Below are positions 24,317-57,205 of a DNA stretch of 64,000 nt, piece by piece. Source of the stretch: Variovorax paradoxus (GTDB lineage Bacteria; Pseudomonadota; Gammaproteobacteria; Burkholderiales; Burkholderiaceae_C); the NCBI RefSeq assembly GCF_009498455.1, contig NZ_CP045644.1:4033001-4097000 (forward strand). Direction: 5' to 3'. A program made the position numbers and the translations under genes. Numbering within the stretch: position 1 is the first letter of the stretch; each line of letters starts with the position of its first letter. The notes below the pieces were generated by a model. The model saw only the letters and a program-made list of their open reading frames with translations. It had not been told where the DNA came from and did no database searches.

Positions 24317-25558
24317 TCATTCCGGCCACCAAGGCGTCCGTGCCGGCTGCGCCGCTTCGGCACGCAGCGCGTCGGCGAGTTCATGCACGGGGTCCTTGAG
24401 GCTGCTTCGCACGAGCGCGATCCATGCACGCAATGCGTCATCCTCGGGTTGATCGCCGGCGATCCGCTCCAGGTGCGACAGCACATCCAGAGCACTGTGA
24501 TAGGTCGCCAAGGACTGGCCGACCGCGGGCAGTTGATTCTCCCGCGCTTCCCGGCGCTGCGCGCGCGCCTGCTCTGCGGCCACTGCGATGTTGTGAGCCT
24601 GGGCTGCTTCCCGCTCCTGCTTTCGTCGGATGGCGGCTTCTTCGGCCACCAGCTTGGACCTGAGTGCTTCGGCTTCCGGGAATGCGATCAGGGCGCGTGT
24701 GATCTCCGGAAGCTGTTGCTCCAGTTGCTCACGACTTCCTGTCCATTGGCGGGCGATGACGTGCCAGTCGCTCTCCAGCTTCAGCTTGTAGCCATCGACG
24801 GCCCTGTATTCATCTCGATGAAAGGGGAAATCCTGGCGCTTGGGTTGGGCAATCTTCTCGACCTGTTCGGAGAAGTTCAGCCTGATGGCGCCGCCCGCGC
24901 GCCGGATTTCAACCGTGTTCGATGCGTCTCCCCGGCCAGCGACGACCTGGCAGCCTCCGGCGATCAGTCCCCGGATGAGCGCTTCGTGGAAACGCAGAAT
25001 CCAGTCGATGTGGGTCAGGGTCGCGGTGATGCGCAAGCAGCCGCTGCCGGAGGTGTACCGGCCCAAGGTCATTCGGTGGCTCGACATGGCGCCGAAGAAG
25101 GGCCTGCGCAGTCGCCTGGCTTCTTCAGCCTCCACCGCCAACTTCGCCTCTTCGCGCTCGATGGCCTGGAAGAAGCGAGCGGTCTTCGCCACCAGCGGGT
25201 GACAGTGATCGAGTGAGGGAGGGACATCGATGGGCTGTAGCACTACGGCGTCTTTGGCTCGGGAAAACGCTTGCTGGACCTGCTGGATCCTCGTGGCGTC
25301 GGAGGAGCGGGCCGCCGTGGTGTCTTTCTCCGGCAATTGGACTTCGTGATCGACGTCGGAAGGCGGCAGTGGGGTCTGCACGCAGATCTTGCCGACCGCG
25401 AGACGGGTCCAATAGCCGACGGGGGGAACAGGGATGTTGTATCGGCGGCAGAGCTTGGAGAGTCCGACATCGGACAGGCCGAGATTCGGCCCCAGATGGC
25501 GAAGCGGCGTCTGCCAGACCAACGCATACAGTTCGGATCGTCTCACGCACATCTCCAT
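24317..25558 (-). CDS. Conserved hypothetical protein with HTH-like N-terminus
   Basis: This 413-residue protein opens with RRSELYALVWQTPLRHLG, then LGLSDVGLSKLCRRYNIPVPP and GYWTRLAVGK, an entry shared by many proteobacterial proteins of unknown function found on integrative elements. It looks like a helix-turn-helix that recognises DNA. The remainder is mixed alpha/beta with a long charged helix (residues about 310-350, AIRRKQEREAAQAHN) that may be coiled coil. It sits between the AlpA gene and radC in the ICE-like region. Function is unknown. Confidence 0.7.
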   Translation of the reverse strand: MEMCVRRSELYALVWQTPLRHLGPNLGLSDVGLSKLCRRYNIPVPPVGYWTRLAVGKICVQTPLPPSDVDHEVQLPEKDTTAARSSDATRIQQVQQAFSRAKDAVVLQPIDVPPSLDHCHPLVAKTARFFQAIEREEAKLAVEAEEARRLRRPFFGAMSSHRMTLGRYTSGSGCLRITATLTHIDWILRFHEALIRGLIAGGCQVVAGRGDASNTVEIRRAGGAIRLNFSEQVEKIAQPKRQDFPFHRDEYRAVDGYKLKLESDWHVIARQWTGSREQLEQQLPEITRALIAFPEAEALRSKLVAEEAAIRRKQEREAAQAHNIAVAAEQARAQRREARENQLPAVGQSLATYHSALDVLSHLERIAGDQPEDDALRAWIALVRSSLKDPVHELADALRAEAAQPARTPWWPE

Positions 25559-25718
25559 CGTCAGTCAAAGGGAAGACTCCGGCCAGGCCGTTTGGTTATG
25601 CCGAATCCGAGCCTCTGACCTTCTTTTTTTTCAGCGTCCTGTGCGCCTTCCTTCCTCATGAAGAGTCAACCGCGCTGCGCTTGCCAGCGCGGGTGGCTTG
25701 CGTGGTGGGGCTTGTTGG
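25559..25718. other. Gene-free spacer before the radC leader
   Basis: No gene is seen. Together with the leader at 25719-25851 it makes a 311-bp divergent region between the hypothetical gene and radC, and should hold both promoters. Confidence 0.4.
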
Positions 25719-25851
25719 TTCCCTTCATCCTTGCACACCGTTCTCGCCGTCAAGGTCTGCGCGTGCTGCGCACGCTGGCGTCCTTCGGCCGTCTGTCGAA
25801 CCCTGACGGCTGCGCTGCAGCGTGCCGGTTCCGGTCTCGGGCAATCCCGCC
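25719..25851 (+). ncRNA. Structured 5' leader of radC (radC-motif-like)
   Basis: This 133-nt leader is closely similar to the one at 31210-31343. CCGTCAAGG (25747-25755) can pair with CCCTGACGG (25801-25809), with one mismatch. Inside it GCGTGC/GCACGC (25761-25766/25770-25775) form a hairpin that covaries with the other copy. A third hairpin using CGGC/GCCG follows. A radC RNA motif upstream of radC and other DNA-related genes has been described in Proteobacteria; this may be a member. It ends 18 nt before the radC ATG. Confidence 0.6.
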
Positions 25852-25869
25852 TGATCACTGGAGTTCGCC

Positions 25870-26400
25870 ATGTCGCACGATCTGTTCTCTTCCCTCGATT
25901 CCTTCGTTTCGGTTTCTTCGTCTTCGCTGCTGGTTCGCGATGTCGCGGGCGCGTACCGGCCGGCCGAGGCCGATGAAGTGCTCGCTGCGGCGCAGCGGGT
26001 GCTGGTGAGCCGGGTGCGTGGCGCCAACGTGCTGACGTCGCCGACGATGGTCAAGGACTTCCTACGGACGCGGCTGGGGGCCTTGCCCCATGAGGTGTTC
26101 GCGGTGGTTCACCTGGATGCTCAGCATGCGGTCTTGGACTACGTCGAGATGTTCCGGGGCACGGTGACGCAGACCTCTGTCTATCCGCGCGAGGTGGTCA
26201 AGGATGCGCTGGCGCTGAACAGTTCCGCGCTCCTGCTGGTGCATTGCCACCCGAGCGGTTGTGCCCAGCCTTCGTTGGCCGACGAGCATCTGACGCGGAC
26301 GCTCAAGCAGGCGGCCGCACTGGTGGACGTGCGGGTGCTGGATCACCTGATCGTCGCGGGCAGCACGGTCCTGTCGATGGCCGAACGAGGCCTTCTGTGA
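25870..26400 (+). CDS. radC: RadC-family JAMM protein
   Basis: This 176-residue protein has the JAB/JAMM domain: AVVHLDAQHAVL, then HCHPSGCAQPSLADEHLT, which supplies the metal-binding His, His and Asp, and LDHLIVAGSTVLSMAERGLL at the end. The usual HNHPSG has C in place of N. The N-terminal HhH part of chromosomal RadC is missing, as is normal for the short mobile-element type. The molecular role of these proteins is unsettled; they are common next to anti-restriction and transfer genes. Confidence 0.9.
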   Translation: MSHDLFSSLDSFVSVSSSSLLVRDVAGAYRPAEADEVLAAAQRVLVSRVRGANVLTSPTMVKDFLRTRLGALPHEVFAVVHLDAQHAVLDYVEMFRGTVTQTSVYPREVVKDALALNSSALLLVHCHPSGCAQPSLADEHLTRTLKQAAALVDVRVLDHLIVAGSTVLSMAERGLL

Positions 26401-26402
26401 CC

Positions 26403-26422
26403 CAAGGGCCCTCGGGCCCTTG
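26403..26422 (+). terminator. Hairpin after radC
   Basis: CAAGGGCCC (26403-26411) and GGGCCCTTG (26414-26422) form a perfect 9-bp stem directly after the radC stop. There is no T run, so it may be a processing or weak termination site. Confidence 0.35.
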
Positions 26423-26602
26423 CGCCGATGATCTAGGCGTGCGACGCGTCGGCTTCCGCGAGGCCCTCGGCCTTGGGCAACAGGCCCACCGACCAGTGGC
26501 CGCCTTGCTCCTGCTGAGGCGCCAGCAGGTCGTGGTCTTGACCATGTTCAACAGTCCCGAGTGGCCGTAGGTCTGAGGCGAGAAGGCGCGGAACCGTCGC
26601 GG

Positions 26603-26726
26603 GCCGATGAAGCGCTCACGCAGACCCTCAAGTCCGCGCTGTCGCTGGTGGACGTGCGGGGTGCTGGACCACCTGATCGCTGACGACCACGTCATCTACT
26701 CGATGGCCGAGCATGAGCTGATGTAG
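26603..26726 (+). pseudogene. 3' relic of a second radC gene
   Basis: The sequence reads ADEALTQTLKSALSLVDVR in one frame and VLDHLIADDHVIYSMAEHELM in the next, joined by a 1-base shift near 26660. This is a clear homolog of the last 40 residues of the intact RadC encoded 200 bp upstream, but diverged. It shows that a second radC once lay in tandem and was mostly deleted. Confidence 0.7.
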
Positions 26727-27152
26727 GCAAGAGGACTTCGGCCTTCTTTTGTTTTCCCAATCGCATGCGCGCTGCGCGTGTGCCTCTGGCTGGCGACCGA
26801 CGCCAGCCGTCCCTCGGAGTCAACTCTCCGGTGGCGGTGCCCGCCACCTGCGCGCCGCTGCGTGCGGCTTGCCTGGCCTCTGCGGGCGCTCCTTCCGTCA
26901 AGGGCCGCTGCGGCGCCCGTGTCCTCGGCTTCGCCTGCGGGCCGCGCCAGCGCCTTCGCTGTTCTCCCTTGACGGCGCACCCGCGCCGGCCCCAGCTGGC
27001 CTCTATGGCCGCGAAAGGGCTTCGCGGCCCCTGCGGAGCCCAACACCCAAGGAGAGCGCCTATGCACAGACCCCCACCCTGAATCCAGTTCCGGTTTTCG
27101 TTTCTTTCCAGTTTTGTTTTCCAACGTCCCGACATGGGACAGGAGTTCGATC
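26727..27152 (+). promoter_or_regulatory. Strongly folded leader of the parB-like gene
   Basis: This gene-free region holds perfect stems GGCTGGCG/CGCCAGCC (26788-26795/26801-26808), GGTGGCGG/CCGCCACC (26830-26837/26841-26848), a long-range CCGTCAAGGG/CCCTTGACGG pair (26895-26904/26966-26975) and GGCCGCGAA/TTCGCGGCC (27007-27015/27021-27029). The long-range pair uses the same CCGTCAAGG element as the leaders before radC and the DUF2958 gene. It looks like a transcribed regulatory RNA. Confidence 0.5.
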
Positions 27153-29186
27153 ATGAATATTGTTGATACGCCAGACGATTCCACCCTTGAAGCGGCCGTG
27201 CCTGCGCAGAGCATGGTGCTGGTGCCGCTTTCGCGGCTGCGCGCGCGGCCGTCCAAGCGCAACGTGCGCCGTAAGGCGCGCACGTCGATTGCTGCCTTGG
27301 CGGCAAGCATCCGGCGTCTGGGCCTCCTGCAGAACCTCACCGTGATTCCTTTCGGCGACGACGGGGACTTCGAGGTCGTCGCCGGCGGGCGACGCCTCGC
27401 GGCCCTGAAGCTGCTCGCGATGAAGCGGCGCATTCCGGAGGATTGGCCGGTGCCTTGCCTGCGGGTGGCCGACACGCTGGCGCGCACGGCGAGCCTCACC
27501 GAGAACGTGCAGAGGGAGGCGATGGGGCCTGTCGAAGAACTGCTCGCATGGAAAGCCCTCGTGGCCGAAGGCCGTTCGGTGGAGGCCATCGCGGCGGACT
27601 TCGGCGTGACGCCGCTGGTGGTCAAGCGCCGGCTCAAGCTCGCCAACGTCTCGCCGCGCCTGCTGGCGGACTATCGGGCCGGCACCGCGACCCTCGAACA
27701 ATTGATGGCGCTGGCCATCACCGACGACCACGCGGCGCAGGAGGCTGCGTTCTACGACAGCCCGGCGTGGCAGCGCAGCCCCGAGGCGCTGCGCGAGCAC
27801 CTGACCCATGACGAGATCGATGCGAGCCGCGATGCGCTGGCGCGCTTCGTCGGGCTGGAGGCGTACGAGGCCGCAGGGGGCGGCGTGCGGCGCGACCTGT
27901 TTTCGGACGAACGGCAAGGCGGCTATCTCACCGATGCCGGACTGCTGGACACGCTCGCGCGCCACAAGCTCGCCGCTGTCGCCGAACAGGTCCAGCTGGA
28001 AGGCTGGGGGTGGGTGGAGGTCGCGCCGCGCGCCACGGCGGCCGAACTCCATGTGTTCCAGCGGGTGCGGCGCACGCGCCGCGATCCGAACAGGACCGAG
28101 GCCAAGCGCATCGCCAGGCTCGAAGGGAAGCAGAGCGCGTTGCAGGACCGGCTCGACGACGAGGATGCGGACCTGAGCGAGGATGGCGAGCGTGCGCTGC
28201 AGGAAGAACTGGATCGGCTCGGCGACGAGCTGAAAGCCATCGAGCAGACCCTGACGGTCTATCCACCCGGCGCGATGGCAATGGCCGGTGCCGTGGTGTC
28301 GGTGGATCACATGGGCGGCGTGGTGGTGCACCGTGGGCTGCTGCGCGAAGAACAGGCCAAGGCGCTGCGGGCGCAAGAGCGGCAGGAGGCCGGTGGGGCA
28401 GGCGAGGAGCGCAATGCGCACGAAGGCGATGCCGATGAACCGGCCAAGCCCGGCATCTCGGAGAAGCTGGCAAAGCGGTTGAGCGCCCACCGCACGGCCG
28501 CCTTGCAGGCCGAGGTCGCCCGGCATCCGCAGGTGGCGCTGGTGGCGGTGGTGCATCGGCTCGCGCTGCGCGTGGTCTTGGACAGCTACGGTTCCGGCGG
28601 GTCGCCCATCGACATCATCGCCACCCCGCCGGATGGGCTCGCGCTGCATGCACCCGATATCGGGGATTCGCCTGCGGCGATGGGCATGGGCAAGGTCCGC
28701 GAGGCATGGGCGGCGCGCCTGCCGAAAGAGCCCAAGGCGCTCTTTGCCGAACTGCTGGCGCTGCCACAGAGCGAGTTGCTGTCGCTGCTGGCGGTGTGCG
28801 TGGCCTCCACGGTCAGCGTGCTGGCTTCCCGCGAGGATGAGGCGCCCGCTGCCGAACTGGCCAAGGCCGTGCGGCTCGACATGCACGACTGGTGGACGCC
28901 GACCGCCGAAGGCTATTTCTCGCATGTGTCCAAGGCGAAGGCGCTGGAGGCGGTGTTGGCCTTTGCACCCGATCACGTGACCCGGCTGTCCAAGCTCAAG
29001 AAGCCCGAGGTGGCGAGAGAGGCCGAAAGGCTCGCAGCCGGGACGGGGTGGCTGCCGGTGATGTTCAGGGGCGAGGCAGAACCGGATCCTGAGACGCCGA
29101 CATCGTCGGGAATCGAAGCGATGCCGGCAGCAAATGAAGCCGCTGCCGAAGCCGAAGACCGCGAGGAACTGGCGGCCGTCGCCTAG
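27153..29186 (+). CDS. ParB/RepB/Spo0J-family partition-like protein
   Basis: This 677-residue protein has a ParB nuclease-like domain at residues about 20-120 (VPLSRLRARPSKRNVR, SIRRLGLLQNLTVIP, FEVVAGGRRLAALK, ENVQREAMGPVEE). A KorB-like HTH follows (SVEAIAADFGVTPLVVKRRLKLANVSPRLLADYRAG). The rest is a long extension with a coiled coil about 310-365 and low-complexity acidic stretches. Large ParB-like proteins of this size are typical of Tn4371-type ICEs and related plasmids. It may silence or coordinate element genes. No parA is adjacent; the ParA gene is 5.7 kb away. Confidence 0.88.
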   Translation: MNIVDTPDDSTLEAAVPAQSMVLVPLSRLRARPSKRNVRRKARTSIAALAASIRRLGLLQNLTVIPFGDDGDFEVVAGGRRLAALKLLAMKRRIPEDWPVPCLRVADTLARTASLTENVQREAMGPVEELLAWKALVAEGRSVEAIAADFGVTPLVVKRRLKLANVSPRLLADYRAGTATLEQLMALAITDDHAAQEAAFYDSPAWQRSPEALREHLTHDEIDASRDALARFVGLEAYEAAGGGVRRDLFSDERQGGYLTDAGLLDTLARHKLAAVAEQVQLEGWGWVEVAPRATAAELHVFQRVRRTRRDPNRTEAKRIARLEGKQSALQDRLDDEDADLSEDGERALQEELDRLGDELKAIEQTLTVYPPGAMAMAGAVVSVDHMGGVVVHRGLLREEQAKALRAQERQEAGGAGEERNAHEGDADEPAKPGISEKLAKRLSAHRTAALQAEVARHPQVALVAVVHRLALRVVLDSYGSGGSPIDIIATPPDGLALHAPDIGDSPAAMGMGKVREAWAARLPKEPKALFAELLALPQSELLSLLAVCVASTVSVLASREDEAPAAELAKAVRLDMHDWWTPTAEGYFSHVSKAKALEAVLAFAPDHVTRLSKLKKPEVAREAERLAAGTGWLPVMFRGEAEPDPETPTSSGIEAMPAANEAAAEAEDREELAAVA

Positions 29187-29191
29187 GCTTG

Positions 29192-29217
29192 AGGCCCCGG
29201 TCGGAAGGCCGGGGCCT
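29192..29217 (+). terminator. Stem-loop after the parB-like gene
   Basis: AGGCCCCGG (29192-29200) pairs with CCGGGGCCT (29209-29217) over an 8-nt loop, 5 bp past the stop codon. It has only two T after it and is probably an auxiliary to the stronger hairpin that follows. Confidence 0.5.
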
Positions 29218-29230
29218 TGGATGTGCGAGA

Positions 29231-29264
29231 AAAACGCGCGCGGCAAGTGTGCCGCGCGCGTTTT
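29231..29264. terminator. Bidirectional rho-independent terminator
   Basis: A perfect 15-bp stem (29231-29245 with 29250-29264) over loop AGTG starts with AAAA and ends with TTTT, so it can stop transcription from either side. Confidence 0.85.
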
Positions 29265-29474
29265 CGATTGCGATGAGGATGGGGACGATGGACGCGCTGT
29301 GGCGGCGTTGAGTGTCCCAAGCCATCGGCATTCCTTGCGCCGTGGTGCGCCCCGGCATGCCCCGTTAGGTTTGCCGCGCCAGCACGTCGCGTGAGCATCG
29401 TGAGGGTTCCGATCCAGAAGCGTACGCATCGCTCGCGGATTCCGAGAGCTCGACGATTCCATCCCTCACATCCC

Positions 29475-29936
29475 ATGAATCAACAAGGCGTCAGCGAAAT
29501 CTGCTTTGAAGAAACCTATGCGGTGTCGCATGACCAGACGGCACGGTCTTTGTTCGCGAGGCTGCCGCATGGCCGCGAACACGCGCAGCAGTTGATCGAA
29601 TGTCTGGCGACCGGGTACCTGGTCGCGGTTGTCGAGTCCGTCTGCATTCGCGAAATGCAGAGGCATGTCGACTCGACGGTCGAGGTGGTCGTGGGCCGCA
29701 CCGTGCGCATCGAACATCGCGGTCCTGTTCCACCGTCGACACGCCTGCGCTTGCGGGGATGGGTCGAGGGGCTGGGCGAGCGCAGTGCGACGTTCCGCGT
29801 CCAAGCACATGACGACCACGAACTCGTGTTCGAAGGGACGGTCACGCTGGTGGCGGCCCATCGGGCAAGCATCGAGTCGCGCATTGCCGCGAAGGTCGAT
29901 GCGCTCGAGACGGCCCGTGGCGGGCAGCGGATCTGA
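29475..29936 (+). CDS. FlK-like hotdog thioesterase-family protein
   Basis: This 153-residue protein has the FlK/fluoroacetyl-CoA thioesterase pattern: FEETYAVSHDQTARSLFARLP at the start, the ATGYLVAVVESVCIREMQRHVD helix with the catalytic Glu/Thr region, then VGRTVRIEHRGPVPPSTRLRLRGWVE and FRVQAHDDHELVFEGT strands of a hotdog fold. Such proteins hydrolyse small acyl-CoAs or bind them. It stands alone behind a terminator inside the ICE maintenance region, with no related gene beside it. The ATG at 29475 lacks a clear ribosome site. Confidence 0.7.
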   Translation: MNQQGVSEICFEETYAVSHDQTARSLFARLPHGREHAQQLIECLATGYLVAVVESVCIREMQRHVDSTVEVVVGRTVRIEHRGPVPPSTRLRLRGWVEGLGERSATFRVQAHDDHELVFEGTVTLVAAHRASIESRIAAKVDALETARGGQRI

Positions 29937-30432
29937 AAGCCGGGAACGACGGGTCGTCCAGCGTCACGATAGGCCGTCGCCGTGAATTCATGACTTCCTT
30001 CCATGCAGCCGATACCGATCATGTCTTCTGCTTCGATGCTGAGGAGCGTTCCGGTGGCGCTTTCTTGGCCAGCCGGCGTGGACCTGGACCGCGTCCGGGC
30101 CCATGCCGGAAGCCATTGCTGCGGGCCAGTGCCTGGGCCATGCGTCCTTTCGGGATCAGGTTCACGCCCACGGCCTTGGATGTGTCGTGAATCCTGGCGC
30201 GGGCACGGCGACGCTTCTCTTCGTTGCGCTTCGCCTCGGGCTTCCTCGCCGCAACCGTCCGACCCGACAAATTTCCCCGACCTGCGGTCTTCCTCGCGAG
30301 GCAAATTTCTCGGGCCTTCCGGTCCTCCACTCGCGTTGCGGCCTTCGGTGCGACGCGCCCGGACCCGCGCCGTCCGGATCACGCCAAGGCCGCGATGGGC
30401 GCGGACCTGGGCAACTTCGAAAGGACTTCATC
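29937..30432 (+). promoter_or_regulatory. Gene-free leader region of the DUF736 gene
   Basis: This 496-bp stretch has no convincing gene. It contains CCCGACAAATTT (30263-30274) and AAATTTCTCGGG (30303-30314), an 11-of-12 inverted repeat that encloses the palindrome CCTCGCGAGG (30292-30301). It should hold the promoter and a folded leader of the downstream DUF736 gene. A basic minus-strand frame (30019-30330) is discounted. Confidence 0.45.
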
Positions 30433-30741
30433 ATGGCCAACATCGGCTCCTTCACCGCACAGAACAACGGCTTCACCGGCACGGTTCGCACCCTGACGCT
30501 CAACGTCAAGGTCAAGATCGCGCCCAGCGACAAGGAAAGCGAGAACGCCCCGGACTACCGCATCGTGGCAGGCACCGGCTACGAGATCGGCGCGGCTTGG
30601 AAGAAGGTCAGCAAGGCGGACCGGCCTTATCTGTCGGTGACGCTGGATGACCCGTCGTTCCCGGCGACCATCTATGCCCGCCTGGTCGAAGGCGACGACG
30701 GCGCGCACAACCTGATCTGGTCGCGCAGCAAGGGCGACTGA
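30433..30741 (+). CDS. DUF736 family protein
   Basis: This 102-residue protein matches DUF736: MANIGSFTAQNNGFTGTVRTLTLNVKVKI at the start, APDYRIVAGTGYEIGAAWKKVS in the centre and YLSVTLDDPSFPATIYARLVEGD at the end. It is a small beta-rich protein of unknown function, often abundant and carried by conjugative elements of this type. It is monocistronic here, with a long folded leader. Confidence 0.9.
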   Translation: MANIGSFTAQNNGFTGTVRTLTLNVKVKIAPSDKESENAPDYRIVAGTGYEIGAAWKKVSKADRPYLSVTLDDPSFPATIYARLVEGDDGAHNLIWSRSKGD

Positions 30742-31209
30742 TCGTCGCCCGGTGCCCCACCGGCAGGCGGGGCGCTTCACTTCTGAGCTCCATCAACGGC
30801 CCGCGATCCGTCGCGGGTCGTTTCACTGCTGCGAGCCCGCACTGAATTCAGTGAGTACGGAATGGCGCCAATCCATGTTTCCTGATTCCCTCATCTGCGG
30901 ATCGTCGTCATACCGACTTTGCGGTTCTACGGATGTGCGGGGAGCAGTGGATGTGCGCTGGCGGTTCTGCGGACTCGTGGCATTGTGCAAAGACGCATCA
31001 CAGGTTTTACGAGTCGGCGTGCATACGGTTCGGCGGCGAAGGCATTCGTGCGTCTCCCGGCGGTGCCGGGCCGGGCTGTCGTGCTGCGCATCGAGCCGCC
31101 GGCGGCGTCTCGCCCCTTCGGGCTTCCATCCCTGACGCCTGCGGCCTTCACTGCGCTCCCGGCCTGCGCGCTTCGCTTGCCACGAGGCAGGGGAGGGCTG
31201 GCTTTGCTG
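30742..31209 (+). other. Gene-free region with short direct repeats
   Basis: No gene is seen in these 468 bp. GCGGTTCTaCGGA (30921-30933) recurs as GCGGTTCTgCGGA (30961-30973) with a 40-bp period, and GGATGTGCG occurs at 30931-30939 and 30949-30957. These may be protein-binding repeats. Hairpin-prone GC-rich sequence follows up to the leader at 31210. Confidence 0.4.
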
Positions 31210-31343
31210 TTCCCTTCATCGTTGCACGGCGTTCTCCCCGTCAAGGTCTGCGCGCACGTCGTGCGCTTGCGGCCGGCGGCCGTCTCTCGAACCCTGACGG
31301 CTGCGCTGCGCCGTCCGGCTTCCGGTCTCGGGCAATTCCGCCC
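31210..31343 (+). ncRNA. Structured 5' leader of the DUF2958 gene (radC-motif-like)
   Basis: This is a homolog of the radC leader at 25719-25851. CCGTCAAGG (31238-31246) faces CCCTGACGG (31292-31300). The internal hairpin is GCGCAC/GTGCGC (31252-31257/31261-31266), at the same offset as in the radC leader but with two base pairs replaced by different pairs, which is covariation. GACGGC/GCCGTC can form an alternative stem that would compete with the long-range pair. An AAGGAG ribosome site lies just after it. Confidence 0.6.
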
Positions 31344-31367
31344 GGAATCCTTCCAAGGAGAAAGACC

Positions 31368-31709
31368 ATGACGAAGCTCATCACCGACGAACAACGCGCG
31401 CTGCTGCTGGCCAACGGCCGGGAATCGATCGAGAACTCTCACTTCGATCCGCTGCCTGTCGTCAAGCTGTTCACGCCCAACGCGGGCGCGACGTGGCTGT
31501 TGACCGAACTCGATGCCGAAGACGTCGCGTTTGGACTCTGCGACCTCGGGCAAGGCTTTCCGGAACTGGGCTATGTGAGCCTGACGGAACTGGAGAGCTT
31601 GCGCGGACGATGGGGTCTGCCGATCGAGCGCGATCTGCACTTCGTTGCTGACAAGCGGCTGAGCGGCTATGCGCGTGAAGCGCGGCTGGCAGGGCGCATC
31701 GTGGCGTAG
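31368..31709 (+). CDS. DUF2958 family protein (copy 1)
   Basis: This 113-residue protein has the full DUF2958 pattern: LITDEQRALLLANGR, DPLPVVKLFTPNAGATWLLTELDAED, FGLCDLGQGFPELGYVSLTELESLRG and LPIERDLHFVADKRLSGYAREARLAG. Function is unknown; these small proteins are a marker of Tn4371-type and related ICEs. AAGGAG sits 7 bp before the ATG. A related copy lies at 32170. Confidence 0.92.
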   Translation: MTKLITDEQRALLLANGRESIENSHFDPLPVVKLFTPNAGATWLLTELDAEDVAFGLCDLGQGFPELGYVSLTELESLRGRWGLPIERDLHFVADKRLSGYAREARLAGRIVA

Positions 31710-31720
31710 CGTCGAAGGCA

Positions 31721-32029
31721 TCAGCCGCCGATGGCCGGCTGATGCCATTCCTTCGGCAACCTTGCTTCTGTTTCGAGCATCAATTCGCCGGCGCTGCGGC
31801 CCAGTGCCCGGGCGATCCTGAGCACCAGAACCAGCGTGGGCATGTGCTCGCCGCGCTCGATCTTGCCCATGTGAGAGCGCTCGATGCCGGCGAGGTGCGC
31901 CAGCATTTCCTGGGCGATGCCGTCCTCGGTTCTCAGTGCGCGCACCACCGCACCGAACGCCAGCGCCGGCGCGACCTCAAAGGTCGTCGCGCCGGTAGGG
32001 CGTCCTCGCTGAATGGCTCGCTTCTGCAT
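31721..32029 (-). CDS. XRE-family HTH regulator
   Basis: This 102-residue protein has a Cro/C1-type HTH at residues about 25-85: FGAVVRALRTEDGIAQEMLAHLAGIERSHMGKIERGEHMPTLVLVLRIARALG. It is encoded between two DUF2958 genes on the opposite strand and is the likely local repressor. Its upstream region (32030-32169) is shared with the second DUF2958 gene. Confidence 0.9.
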   Translation of the reverse strand: MQKRAIQRGRPTGATTFEVAPALAFGAVVRALRTEDGIAQEMLAHLAGIERSHMGKIERGEHMPTLVLVLRIARALGRSAGELMLETEARLPKEWHQPAIGG

Positions 32030-32169
32030 GGACAGAAGCGTCTCGTTTCAGCACAATTTAAACCACGTTATCTTTAACTCATGTCGTTGTTTTCAGAATC
32101 TGGCCGCGCGTAGAAATCCTTCTGCACCTGTCTTTGTGGCATTAGCATTCCGTCATCTTTCGAGGGCCC

Positions 32170-32511
32170 ATGACCTTTCTTACCGAGCAGCAGCGCGCCG
32201 AGATGCTGGCCAACGGCGTAGCGAGCGCGCTTGGCCAAGCCGTCGACCCCTATCCCGTTGTCAAGCTGTATACGCTGGACGCTCCCGCCTGCTGGTTGCT
32301 CACCGAGCTCGATGCCGATGGCGATCGCGCCTACGGGCTAGCCGATGCCGGCACCGGCTTCCCCGAACTTGGGCACGTGAGCCTGTCGGCGCTCGAGCGT
32401 GTGCGCGGTCCCCAGGGATTGCGCATCGTCGCCGATCCGCATTTCAGGGCACGCCAGCCGTTGTCCGGCTATGTGGCCGACGCGCAGCGCGACGGGTCGA
32501 TCAACGATTGA
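32170..32511 (+). CDS. DUF2958 family protein (copy 2)
   Basis: This 113-residue paralog of the 31368 gene keeps the same blocks: LTEQQRAEMLANG, DPYPVVKLYTLDAPACWLLTELDADGD, YGLADAGTGFPELGHVSLSALERVRG and RQPLSGYVADAQRDG. It has diverged substantially from copy 1 and has no similar leader. The two copies flank the XRE regulator. Confidence 0.88.
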   Translation: MTFLTEQQRAEMLANGVASALGQAVDPYPVVKLYTLDAPACWLLTELDADGDRAYGLADAGTGFPELGHVSLSALERVRGPQGLRIVADPHFRARQPLSGYVADAQRDGSIND

Positions 32512-36947: not shown

Positions 36948-37322
36948 ACTTCACCGTGTCCAGCGAACGAGCATGCCGTCGAACTGCAGCCGGACGTGTG
37001 TCCGCGCTGCTTTCCGTCGTGCAAAGGGCCCGCCGCCAGCGTGCAGCGCGAGCTGCACCGCCGCTGCCCCTCGGGCAGTGTTGCGCACCTCGTGCGCGGC
37101 TGGCGGCAGTTCGGAGCCGGGAGCGGATGCGGGAGGCGAAGACGGAGGGCCAGATAAAAGGGGTGGCACGCCGCCACCCGCAAGGTCAGTCTGCACGTGG
37201 GTTGGGCGCGGCACGGCACCTGTCGGTGCCGGTGCCGTGCCAGTGCGCAATGCCGCATCGTTGTGACATTGCGCGCGTGCCGCTTCCGATCCATTGCTCC
37301 CCATTGCGCCGGAGTGCTCACC
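36948..37322 (+). other. Gene-free region before the relaxase: candidate oriT
   Basis: No convincing gene is seen in these 375 bp. GGCACGGCAC (37210-37219) and GTGCCGTGCC (37232-37241) form a perfect inverted repeat, and GCGCAATG (37245-37252) with CATTGCGC (37267-37274) another. Relaxases of this kind are usually encoded next to their own origin of transfer, and such repeats flank nick sites. Confidence 0.5.
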
Positions 37323-39269
37323 ATGGCGACTCGTAAGGAAATGGAGGGCGACCGCTTCCGCGTTCGGCCCGCGGCCCCGAAGTCCCGCGCAGGGCCGCGT
37401 CCGGAGCGCTTTGTGTCCCAGGTTCTCAAGGAAGTCTCAAAGGCCTGCGCCAAAGCGTCGGGCAAGCTGGCAGGACGCCCTGCATCGACCTTTGGCCGGG
37501 GCCGCGTCGCGGCCGGCATGGCCGGCGGTCGCCTCGGCGCGCATGCTCGGCGCGTGGTCATCAAGGCCCGCTTCGTGGTGCTCCGGAAAGCCGGCGCGAA
37601 CTCGGTCTCCACGCACCTGCGCTACATCGAGCGCGATGGGGTGACACGCGACGGGCAGCGCGGGCAGGCTTATGGTCCCGAGACCGATGCCGCCGACCTC
37701 AAGGCCTTCGAGGAGCGGGGCAGGGGAGATCGCCACCAGTTCCGCTTCATCGTCTCGGCCGAGGACGCGGTCGACCTGGACGATCTGCGCGGCTTCACGC
37801 GGCAACTCATGCAGCGCATGGCGGTGGATCTGGAAACGCCGCTGGACTGGGTGGCCGTCGATCACTGGGACACCGACAACCCGCACACCCACGTCGTCTT
37901 GAACGGCCGGACCGCGGGCAAGGAAGACCTCATCATCGCGCCGGACTACATCGCCCGGGGCATGCGCATGCGCGCCAGCGAGATTGCTACCGAATGGTTG
38001 GGGCCGCGCACCGAGATCGAGATCCGGCAAAGCCTCCAGCGCGAAGTCGAGCAGCAGCGACTCACCGGCCTGGACCGGGCCTTGATGCGCCAAGCCGTAG
38101 CCGATACCGTTGACCTGACTGGTCGGCCTGAGAACCGGCACCGCCAGAACCTGCTGCGGGCGCGTCTGCAGCGGCTCGAAGCCATGGCGATGGCCGAGCG
38201 AGTCGATGTCAACCGGTGGCGGCTGGCGCCGGACATGGTGCGGACCTTGACCGCGATGGGCGAGCGCGAGGAGGCGCTGGACACCATGCGCCGGGCACTC
38301 AAGGGCCAGCAGCGTGAATGCGTGCTGGAGGACGCGTCGACCACCCCCGTCATCGGCCGCATCGCGGGTAAGGGACTGACCGACGAACTGCACGACCGAG
38401 GCTATCTGGTGGTCGATGGCATTGATGGCCGGGCGCACTATCTGAAACTACCGCCCGGTGCCGATCTCTTGGCGTTTCCGGTGGACGGCATTGTGGAGGC
38501 GAAGACGCCGGGAGGGGAGCGGGCGGTCGACCGCACTATCGCGGCAATCTCCCAGGACGGCATCTACAAGACCGCCAATCACCTAGATCGACTGCGGCAG
38601 GCGGCATACCGCGATCCGCTGGCCACTATCGATGTTCATGTGCGACGGCTCGAAGCGTTGCGTCGCTCTGGCATTGTGGTGCGCGTGGCCGATGGTGTCT
38701 GGCGAGTACCGTCTGACTTAGCGCAGAAGGGCCAGCAGCACGATACGCAGAAAGTCACGGCTCCGGTCATTGAACTGCGCTCGCACTTGCCGATCAACCA
38801 ACAGGTGCGAGCCATCGGCGCGACCTGGCTGGACCGGCAATTGATTGGAAATGGCGATGGACTAGCGGCGCACGGTTTTGGCGCCCGGGTGCGCGATGCA
38901 ATGCGCGGCCGACAGGAATTCCTAGTCGAACAGAGGTTAGCTGAGCGACGCGGCCCGCATGTAGTTCTTTCGCGCAATCTGCTGCACACCTTGAGGGAAC
39001 GCGAGTTGGTGGCCGTCGGAAAGGCTCTGCAAGATCGGACAGGCCAGACCTATCGGCCTCTTGGGGAGAATGGAAGAGCGAGTGGCATCTACCGTTGTTC
39101 TATTCAACTCGTGAGCGGGCGCTTTGCGGTGCTTGACGATGGCATGGGGTTCACCTTAGTGGCGTGGCGACCTGCAGTGGAAGTTCGGCTGGGGCAACAC
39201 GTCTCTGCTGTGGCCCAGGGAAAGTCAGTCACATGGCATTTCGATCGTCGGCGAGACATGGCAATTTGA
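37323..39269 (+). CDS. Relaxase/mobilization nuclease with DUF3363 (RlxS type)
   Basis: This 648-residue relaxase has the metal-binding triad in DHWDTDNPHTHVVLNG (His181, His188, His190), and a candidate nucleophile Tyr101 in THLRYIERDG. The C-terminal half matches the DUF3363 part of Tn4371-type relaxases (HLDRLRQAAYRDP, NQQVRAIGATWLDRQL). It nicks oriT and pilots the strand. ATG 37323 is taken, since the frame upstream runs through the likely oriT. It is the last ICE gene seen; no traG or trb genes follow. Confidence 0.92.
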   Translation: MATRKEMEGDRFRVRPAAPKSRAGPRPERFVSQVLKEVSKACAKASGKLAGRPASTFGRGRVAAGMAGGRLGAHARRVVIKARFVVLRKAGANSVSTHLRYIERDGVTRDGQRGQAYGPETDAADLKAFEERGRGDRHQFRFIVSAEDAVDLDDLRGFTRQLMQRMAVDLETPLDWVAVDHWDTDNPHTHVVLNGRTAGKEDLIIAPDYIARGMRMRASEIATEWLGPRTEIEIRQSLQREVEQQRLTGLDRALMRQAVADTVDLTGRPENRHRQNLLRARLQRLEAMAMAERVDVNRWRLAPDMVRTLTAMGEREEALDTMRRALKGQQRECVLEDASTTPVIGRIAGKGLTDELHDRGYLVVDGIDGRAHYLKLPPGADLLAFPVDGIVEAKTPGGERAVDRTIAAISQDGIYKTANHLDRLRQAAYRDPLATIDVHVRRLEALRRSGIVVRVADGVWRVPSDLAQKGQQHDTQKVTAPVIELRSHLPINQQVRAIGATWLDRQLIGNGDGLAAHGFGARVRDAMRGRQEFLVEQRLAERRGPHVVLSRNLLHTLRERELVAVGKALQDRTGQTYRPLGENGRASGIYRCSIQLVSGRFAVLDDGMGFTLVAWRPAVEVRLGQHVSAVAQGKSVTWHFDRRRDMAI

Positions 39270-55802: not shown

Positions 55803-55803
55803 T

Positions 55804-56084
55804 GAGATGGTCCGCCTCGCCCCTCCAAGTTGTACAACACGTTCCTCATCCACCAGGAGACCGTCATGAGCAACCAGCAAATCGCGGCAGTCACTTACGG
55901 CATCGATCTAGGCAAGACGTGGTTTCACGTCGTCGGCATGGACGCCAGCGGCAATCCCGTCAAGAAGGCCAAACTTAGTCGCAGCAACATTCAGGGATTC
56001 TTCGTCAATGTCCCGGGTGCACTGATCGGTATGGAGGCTTGCCCGGGATCGCAATGGTTGGCGCGCAAGCTGCAGGCGCTGGGT
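55804..56084 (+). repeat. Left-end partial copy of the IS1111-group element (281 bp)
   Basis: Bases 55804-56084 repeat at 56085-56365 with a 281-bp period and one visible difference (CAGC/CAGA after the start codon). It holds the left subterminal repeat ATGGTCCGCCTCGC (55807-55820) and the first 73 codons of the transposase from ATG 55866. It is a truncated copy in direct tandem with the full element. Confidence 0.85.
55866..56084 (+). pseudogene. Truncated IS1111-group transposase (first 73 codons)
   Basis: It has the same N-terminus as the full gene (MSNQQIAAVTYGIDLGKTWF..MEACPGSQWLARKLQALG) and is cut where the next copy of the element begins. Only the first two acidic residues of the DEDD site remain, so it is inactive. 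Confidence 0.8.
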
Positions 56085-56146
56085 GAGATGGTCCGCCTCG
56101 CCCCTCCAAGTTGTACAACACGTTCCTCATCCACCAGGAGACCGTC

Positions 56147-57205
56147 ATGAGCAACCAGAAAATCGCGGCAGTCACTTACGGCATCGATCTAGGCAAGACG
56201 TGGTTTCACGTCGTCGGCATGGACGCCAGCGGCAATCCCGTCAAGAAGGCCAAACTTAGTCGCAGCAACATTCAGGGATTCTTCGTCAATGTCCCGGGTG
56301 CACTGATCGGTATGGAGGCTTGCCCGGGATCGCAATGGTTGGCGCGCAAGCTGCAGGCGCTGGGTCACCAGGTTCGCATTCTTCCAGCTCAGTTTGTGAA
56401 GCCCTATGTGAAGTCCAACAAGAACGACATCATCGACGCCGCTGCGATCGCCGAAGCAGTCACGCGGCCGACGATGCGCTTTGTGCAGGTCAAACACACT
56501 GAACAGGTCGATCTGCAGGCGCTTCACCGTAGCCGCCAACTGCTTGTCTCGACGCGCACCCGATTGATCAATCAGATGCGTGCATTTTGCTTGGAATACG
56601 GGGTTGCCATGCGCAATGGAGTGGGAGGGTTCAAATCTGGATTGCCAGCCGCTTTGGCCGATGAGGCGAACGACCTCACGCCCTCCATGCGCGAACTCCT
56701 TGTCGATCTGGCCGGCGATCTAGCTGCTCTCGAGGGACGAATTGCCGTCCTCAGTCGCAAGATCAACGCGGTAGCGGACGCATCAGACATGGCACGCCGA
56801 CTTACATCGATTCCTGGGGTCGGTCCGCTTATCGCAACAGCGCTCGTATCGGCGGTAGGCGACGCCCATCAATTCAAGAGGGCCCGTGATCTCAGTGCAT
56901 GGCTGGGACTGACACCAGGGCAATATTCCACCGGAGGCAAAACGAACCTGACCGGGATCAGCAAGCGTGGCAACACCTACGTGCGCACGCTGCTCATTCA
57001 TGGCGCGCGAGCGTCCTGCATGCATTTGGACAGATCGAAGGATCGACTCGGGGTCTGGCTCGATCAGGCAGAAGCAAGACTGCATCACAACAAGCTGGTG
57101 GTCGCCCTTGCCAACAAAATGGTGCGGATCGCGTGGGTGATCTTGACCAGAGCAGGTGCTCTCTATGAACGGCGTGACCCTCGCTTCTCCACCGAATTGA
57201 ACTGA
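56147..57205 (+). CDS. IS110/IS1111-group transposase
   Basis: This 352-residue recombinase has the N-terminal DEDD (RuvC-like) domain: Asp in TYGIDLGKTWF, Glu in GMEACPGS, and Asp residues in KNDIIDAAAIAEA. The C-terminal Transposase_20 part (LTSIPGVGPLIATALVSAVGD, WLGLTPGQYSTGGKTNLTGISKRGN) carries the Ser. ATG 56147 with AGGAG upstream is chosen over a TTG at 56111. All key residues are present, so the element may be active. Confidence 0.92.
   Translation: MSNQKIAAVTYGIDLGKTWFHVVGMDASGNPVKKAKLSRSNIQGFFVNVPGALIGMEACPGSQWLARKLQALGHQVRILPAQFVKPYVKSNKNDIIDAAAIAEAVTRPTMRFVQVKHTEQVDLQALHRSRQLLVSTRTRLINQMRAFCLEYGVAMRNGVGGFKSGLPAALADEANDLTPSMRELLVDLAGDLAALEGRIAVLSRKINAVADASDMARRLTSIPGVGPLIATALVSAVGDAHQFKRARDLSAWLGLTPGQYSTGGKTNLTGISKRGNTYVRTLLIHGARASCMHLDRSKDRLGVWLDQAEARLHHNKLVVALANKMVRIAWVILTRAGALYERRDPRFSTELN

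Follow-up and report, generated by a model that had tools for sequence, protein, structure and literature searches.

Candidate single-stranded-DNA promoters before radC and a DUF2958 gene of a Tn4371-type integrative element in Variovorax paradoxus

We analyzed a stretch of 64,000 nucleotides (nt) of the Variovorax paradoxus contig NZ_CP045644.1 (positions 4,033,001 to 4,097,000, hereafter the window), which contains part of a Tn4371-type integrative element. Within the window, the element carries radC, a ParB-like gene, a DUF736 gene, two DUF2958 genes, repA, parA, traF and a relaxase gene, all on the plus strand; the names repA, parA and traF were taken from matches to annotated relatives. 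Gene order and the motif at the probable transfer origin (oriT) place it in the Tn4371 family, with the order repA-parA-traF-oriT-traI accompanied by ParB-like, DUF736 and DUF2958 genes, and the annotation of plasmid pPNAP01 shows an identical gene order. The leaders of radC and of the first DUF2958 gene share a covarying hairpin, termed type A, with a promoter signal on the minus strand. Judged from their sequences, these leaders are probably single-stranded-DNA promoters in the leading region of the element, forming a family that resembles the Frpo promoters of conjugative plasmids and is unrelated to them in sequence. The features of the two copies are listed below.

25708-25867, minus strand: type A hairpin before radC, whole conserved element (nhmmer match and 83% identity to copy 2); functional strand read as minus, the probable transferred strand (T-strand)
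25748-25753, minus strand: -35-like TTGACG in the inner helix, left arm, copy 1
25727-25732, minus strand: -10-like AAGGAT, copy 1, with A-11 and T-7 kept and the first base alone outside the internal loop
25747-25755: left arm of the inner helix, CCGTCAAGG, copy 1 (covarying pairs)
25801-25809: right arm of the inner helix, CCCTGACGG, copy 1 (covarying pairs)
25732-25740: left arm of the mid helix, copy 1 (covarying pairs)
25818-25826: right arm of the mid helix, copy 1 (covarying pairs)
25838-25853, plus strand: strongly conserved box CGGGCAATCCCGCC, copy 1, near where the transcript would be expected to start
25870-26400, plus strand: radC (JAB-domain protein of 176 amino acids; Pfam RadC)
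31195-31362, minus strand: type A hairpin before the DUF2958 gene (nhmmer match)
31239-31244, minus strand: -35-like TTGACG, copy 2
31218-31223, minus strand: -10-like AACGAT, copy 2
31329-31344, plus strand: conserved box CGGGCAATTCCGCCCG, copy 2
31368-31709, plus strand: first DUF2958 gene (Pfam DUF2958)

The leaders before radC (copy 1, 25709-25851) and the first DUF2958 gene (copy 2, 31200-31342) were 83% identical over 143 nt, in agreement with a preliminary description that had called them homologous while noting that the genes behind them are unrelated. The long-distance pairing of CCGTCAAGG with CCCTGACGG proposed there was found in both copies (25747-25755 with 25801-25809, and 31238-31246 with 31292-31300), with a single internal A.C mismatch on the plus strand. 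The mid helix of copy 1 contains two plus-strand A.C pairs, equivalent to G.T on the minus strand, and its outermost position is a T/C mismatch. Pairs 60-68 (TA in copy 1, CG in copy 2) and 61-67 (GC and AT) of the internal hairpin were changed on both sides, and represent the two compensatory differences described earlier. A competing stem, GACGGC/GCCGTC, had also been reported for copy 2; it is present and forms in the minimum-energy fold of that copy, but it is not a feature of the family, being found in one of 58 aligned rows. Two more type A copies were located in the V. paradoxus genome, approximately 450 kb away.

Among 72,556 plasmid records searched, the two leaders matched 247 and 262. 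An nhmmer profile was first built from the two window copies and then rebuilt with the sequences it matched; the resulting profile gave 97 matches, spread over 72 of 84 sources (83 loci plus the window). Genome contigs were scanned with the RadC protein, which detects close relatives only, and a leader was found directly before radC (its end within 80 nt of the RadC match) in 49 of the 53 loci obtained. The four remaining loci were a contig starting 54 nt before the match (L073), two with distant RadC proteins (L080, L081) and one with a partial match (L083). Once the duplicates L001 and L004 had been removed, 95 leaders remained. For these, the longest reading frame with a start no more than 150 nt away belonged to RadC in 63 cases, to DUF2958 in 15, to a third family in 13 and to other proteins in three, and one leader had none. 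Proteins of the third family have up to about 137 amino acids and are annotated as ATPase or hypothetical (L029 12008-12172, L024 11671-11833, L020 17329-17493); the first 120 residues of the member at L029 had no Pfam match, and the family is a candidate for an early establishment protein. Two to four leader copies were present in 20 of the 72 sources. The hosts of the family were Tn4371-type elements and plasmids typed MOBP, MOBH or MOBF, and the leader also lay 5' of radC in two MOBF-typed plasmids with SSB/DUF932 genes and in one relative without relaxase typing. Among six RadC-family matches in the V. paradoxus genome, only two stood just 3' of leader places, suggesting that the leader goes with the element and not with RadC as such.

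To analyze the fold, rows at least 95% alike were removed, leaving 59, and one incomplete row was dropped. Pairs were counted in the nhmmer alignment of the 58 rows, as the MAFFT alignments A2 and A3 (56 rows) misplaced part of the inner arm when judged by eye. An unsupervised covariation search placed pairs from three parts of the structure among its top ranks: the apical hairpin, the inner helix and the mid helix. The 29 pairs examined, which omit the mid-helix position 29-121 (Watson-Crick in 19 of 58 rows), had Watson-Crick bases in 89.2% of cells, where shuffles averaged 78%, and 16 of them showed double changes against 8.1 in shuffles; none of 500 shuffles reached either value. When the 3' partner was shifted by one to three columns as a control, Watson-Crick cells fell to 22-30%. 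The outcome was the same in a subset of 14 rows less than 80% alike, where 14 pairs had double changes against 6.2. The covariance noted between the two window copies thus persisted with more homologues, and the hairpin is not due to chance. On this covariation, the conserved stem-loop typical of the Frpo/ssi class appears to be present. An outermost helix (columns 1-12 with 137-148) also pairs well; it is nearly invariant, has no covariation support and shows the opposite wobble asymmetry, and we do not claim it.

The left arm, read on the minus strand, was found to carry the pattern TTGA(CG)-N15-NANNNT. Across the 58 rows, the six -35 positions were T in 58, T in 56, G in 58, A in 57, C in 48 and G in 39, while in the -10 element A-11 and T-7 were present in every row and positions -12, -10 and -8 varied. 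A-11 and T-7 are the bases that sigma-70 flips out on forming the open complex. Here both fall within the internal loop on the far side of the mid helix, which would leave them unpaired in the folded strand from the outset. The non-template arm has a spacer of 15, and the template arm, with two extra bases in its internal loop, has one of 17. In further relatives, 26 of 29 matches kept CTTGA-N17-NANNNT (22 of the 25 not already seen); the three misses were a spacer of 14, a lost A-11 and an incomplete match. Scored with sigma-70 weights, the best site on either strand was the minus-strand site, with a family mean of 7.18 compared to -0.50 for the best plus-strand site; its score was reached by four of 2000 column shuffles. 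The promoter would be directed away from the gene in double-stranded DNA and into the gene in the folded minus strand. In type A hairpins, a -35 and -10 would thus be reconstituted within the hairpin and point into the gene, as far as the sequence patterns indicate.

The orientation of the leaders relative to transfer was examined with the remaining genes of the region.

27153-29186, plus strand: ParB-like gene (Pfam ParB_N; scan began at 27114)
30433-30741, plus strand: DUF736 gene
32170-32511, plus strand: second DUF2958 gene
37150-37179: probable oriT core, CCAGATAAAAGG adjoining the inverted repeat GGGTGGC/GCCACCC, between traF and the relaxase gene
37197-39269, plus strand: relaxase gene (Pfam DUF3363), towards which the leading genes are directed

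The nearest marker lay downstream on the leader's own strand for RepA (28 of 28), ParA (18/18), TraF (15/15) and the relaxase (15/15). The same held for DUF2840 (10), DUF2285 (4), TraD (1) and TrwC (1), and none was on the opposite side. Leaders of one locus share markers, and the numbers of tblastn rows behind these counts were 14 for RepA, 10 for ParA, 8 for TraF and 10 for the relaxase. All leaders with a marker have the orientation expected of Frpo/ssi elements, and the side on which they lie may be the leading side. The oriT of one Tn4371-family element has been located between traF and traI, and passages of that paper (PMC11448139) name a conserved 20-bp segment adjoining an inverted repeat as the most likely site of nic. 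The AAAAGG motif was found in five of the seven loci having both flanking genes (the window and four of six others), and in the window it stands next to the repeat. In RP4-type origins, the cleaved strand carries the repeat on the 5' side of the nick. By analogy with these origins, the oriT arrangement suggests that the minus strand is probably the strand cleaved and transferred, and that radC probably lies in the leading region.

A further hairpin related to the two leaders, which the preliminary description had overlooked, precedes the ParB-like gene.

26864-27034, minus strand: type B' hairpin before the ParB gene, with arms at 26895-26903 (CCGTCAAGG) and 26967-26975 (CCTTGACGG); TTGACG kept

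Type B hairpins stand before DUF932 or ParB genes. The promoter layout resembled that of type A in 18 of 38 places, where the minus strand reads TTGAC-N-N16-[TC]A[CA]NNT with -10 elements such as TACGGT and TACAGT; the equivalent pattern on the plus strand was found in none of the 38. Of the remaining 20 places, 19 were without the pattern and one had a weak match, and they include the ParB hairpin of the window and hairpins before ssb/DUF3560 in MOBF plasmids.

Segments of this kind were also seen elsewhere. On a plasmid with an IncN replicon type, a type B'-like segment (L025, 11959-12097) is flanked by intI1 and by the recombinase gene of a TnAs1 transposon. Five places resembling the ParB hairpin region of the window occur in the Xanthomonas hydrangeae plasmid p76, one of them at L018 12060-12184.

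We propose that the leaders act as single-stranded-DNA promoters during entry of the element. The minus strand would enter the recipient single-stranded, and each leader would fold into a long hairpin. Its 3' arm would serve as the non-template strand: the -35 TTGACG would be part of the paired inner helix, and A-11 and T-7 would stand open in the internal loop, in effect pre-melted. The 5' arm would serve as the template, on which RNA polymerase carrying sigma-70 may start and then transcribe beyond the hairpin into radC or the DUF2958 gene. Synthesis of the complementary strand would then dissolve the hairpin; expression would stop, because the boxes face away from the gene once the DNA is double-stranded. 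The establishment genes of the element would thus be read first during entry, with RadC and the DUF2958 protein as early establishment factors and, in relatives, also the products of ParB/DUF932 and SSB genes behind related hairpins. A broader version of this proposal, which we offer tentatively as a possibility, is that strandedness itself is the switch of a direction-reversing promoter, directed into the gene when folded (template-arm spacer 17) and weakly away from it when double-stranded (spacer 15). It may be a general solution, unrelated to Frpo, by which integrative elements and plasmids express RadC, DUF2958, DUF932/ParB and other establishment genes on entry.

Several results weigh against a single-stranded-DNA promoter. 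The -10 boxes of the window fit TATAAT at three of six positions only, and a simple consensus scan, limited to spacers of 16-18, found no promoter. The further relatives in which the site was counted were found by similarity to copy 2 and are not independent. Single-sequence DNA folding of the window copies gave no long-range stem, and the z-scores of single-sequence folds were weak (-1.0 to -1.65; -1.54 for the ParB hairpin) and were not used as support. A recognisable -10 was not found in the window ParB hairpin or in the MOBF ssb/DUF3560 hairpins. Neither family model matched the leading region of F (L084) or the ColIb-P9 stretch L085, which holds tra/pil genes only (nhmmer, E<=10).

Mismatches in the 29 pairs were used to ask which strand acts. 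On the plus strand, 70 cells were A.C and 14 were G.T, where A.C on the plus strand corresponds to a G.T wobble on the minus strand; without pair 49-99, which contributes 24 A.C cells, the counts were 46 and 14. By column, 11 favored A.C, two favored G.T and five were tied. This asymmetry is partly compositional, since shuffles gave 119 A.C and 60 G.T, and in the outermost helix it is reversed (17 G.T against 3 A.C). RNAalifold, run with RNA energies on A2/A3, gave -32.1 kcal/mol for the minus strand and -24.4 kcal/mol for the plus strand; on the minus strand it recovered the mid helix only, the inner helix being replaced, whereas on the plus strand it recovered both. In view of the shuffle composition, the outer-region trend and the inner helix on the plus strand, the mismatch test provides moderate evidence at best.

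The alternative closest to the preliminary description is a cis-acting RNA leader on the plus strand, riboswitch-like, protein-binding or working as a co-transcriptional switch, which would be transcribed from a promoter further upstream and then control radC and the DUF2958 gene. We consider it unlikely. The outer-region mismatches and the RNAalifold helices fit it, as do the strong conservation of the CGGGCAAT box and of the ribosome-binding site by the start codon; with G.U included, 81.8% of mid-helix cells and 88.3% of inner-helix cells are paired on the plus strand, compared to 86.0% and 93.8% on the minus strand. However, the inner pair 49-99 is A.C in 24 of 58 rows and never G.T, and the excess of A.C columns points the same way. 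An RNA model gives no role to the near-invariant TTGA and the invariant A-11 and T-7 of the opposite strand. A simple scan showed no promoter-like site upstream on the plus strand, and where markers are present the leaders keep to one side of the relaxase, directed towards it. According to the preliminary description, a radC RNA motif is located before radC and other genes in Proteobacteria; the matches listed in our search of the open literature included no paper on it. Membership in this motif, which had been suggested for the leaders, was not borne out: no Rfam family reached its gathering score in the window, the radC family was not listed at E<=5 in 25500-32300, and a scan of 15 further loci at E<=1 gave one unrelated sub-threshold match. 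The leaders also differ from it in having their promoter signal on the other strand. Of the RNA-leader interpretation, the shared, base-paired and covarying leader stands; an RNA fits less well than DNA with the promoter signal on the opposite strand and with the A.C mismatches.

An ordinary double-stranded promoter on the minus strand, reading leftward with an operator palindrome, or an antisense promoter, would account for the -35/-10 pair on that strand and is very unlikely. A leftward reading frame starts at 25558 upstream of copy 1, while copy 2 comes after the plus-strand DUF736 gene. Among 15 leaders in annotated plasmid stretches, whose gene tables are incomplete, the listed upstream neighbor was leftward in four and on the leader's own strand in 11. 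Such a promoter leaves unexplained the covariation over approximately 95 columns and the position before three gene families. It is highly improbable that the leaders are primarily single-strand initiation sites for complementary-strand synthesis, by primosome or primer RNA, with gene expression secondary. Frpo is described as both a transcription and a priming site in the title of Masai and Arai 1997, but priming alone would need neither two to four copies in one source nor a reading frame within 150 nt, which follows 94 of the 95 leaders. It is extremely improbable that the leaders are simply a protein-binding or recombination site, conserved and copied from gene to gene within the element: near-identical long repeats in one element can recombine, as a passage on Frpo1/Frpo2 indicates (PMC9849209), but the conservation here is structured, with fixed promoter positions and compensatory changes elsewhere.

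The single-stranded-DNA promoter reading invites comparison with known entry promoters. According to passages of PMC11541004 and PMC12826799, F and ColIb-P9 carry known promoters of the Frpo type, and BLAST has been used to look for them in many other plasmids. The Frpo1 and Frpo2 hairpins of F are described as needed for early expression in the leading region (PMC9849209). The F leading region holds SSB, ParB-like and DUF932 genes, kinds that also occur behind related hairpins in the relatives studied here. Similarity of Tn4371 genes to proteins encoded close to the transfer origin of F, including a ParB-like one, was pointed out in 2009 (PMC2789088). The leaders share with Frpo/ssi of F and ColIb-P9 a probable leading-region position, repeated copies, a hairpin with -35 and -10 on what would be the transferred strand, SSB, ParB-like and DUF932 genes downstream in relatives, and genes that would be templated by that strand. 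In contrast to Frpo/ssi, they are GC-rich, have the 15/17 spacer, precede radC and DUF2958 genes, and occur in Tn4371-type elements and in MOBP, MOBH and MOBF plasmids. Their covarying core spans approximately 95 columns, whereas the two F regions are 89.6% alike over 528 columns. Since the family models found no match in the F leading region, the leaders would constitute a sequence family of their own, Frpo-like in working and not by detectable descent. A search of the F Frpo regions for a canonical -35/-10 (TTG start, 9/12 matches) found none, and we therefore make no base-by-base comparison with F.

Passages of Samuel et al. 2024 (PMC11541004) likewise describe widespread single-stranded-DNA promoter candidates before leading genes, with -35, -10 and UP elements in foldable intergenic regions. 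Those were obtained by two routes, BLAST searches with five known Frpo/ssi sequences and a search for consensus elements in four islands, followed by BLAST with the candidates. The main text of that paper has no mention of radC, DUF932 or "integrative and conjugative". For RP4, a passage of PMC7314908 states that no such promoters were identified for entry-induced genes. Among the matches listed in our search of the open literature, no paper described these hairpins. If the proposal is correct, integrative elements carry an F-like, entry-triggered expression program in sequences unrelated to those of F, and BLAST with known Frpo sequences would be expected to miss such promoters. RadC, DUF2958 and the third small family would then be probable early establishment or anti-defense genes. 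A covarying hairpin with invariant TTGA, A-11 and T-7 on the transferred strand could serve as a search rule for GC-rich elements.

Other features were observed in the window. Immediately 5' of the DUF736 gene is a conserved non-coding stretch (30240-30432) with two repeats containing CAAATTTC, which gave BLAST matches of 68-97% identity in 19 other loci (the same-place L004 left out). TTGACG was absent from both strands of this stretch in the window, and it may be a different control element of the same region. A FlK/4HBT thioesterase-like gene at 29391-29936, between parB and DUF736, is probably an inserted cargo gene. Just 3' of radC, 26594-26660 is a decayed partial repeat of the 3' part of radC (72% over 67 nt to 26269-26335). 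A perfect tandem duplication of 281 nt was found at 55803-56364.

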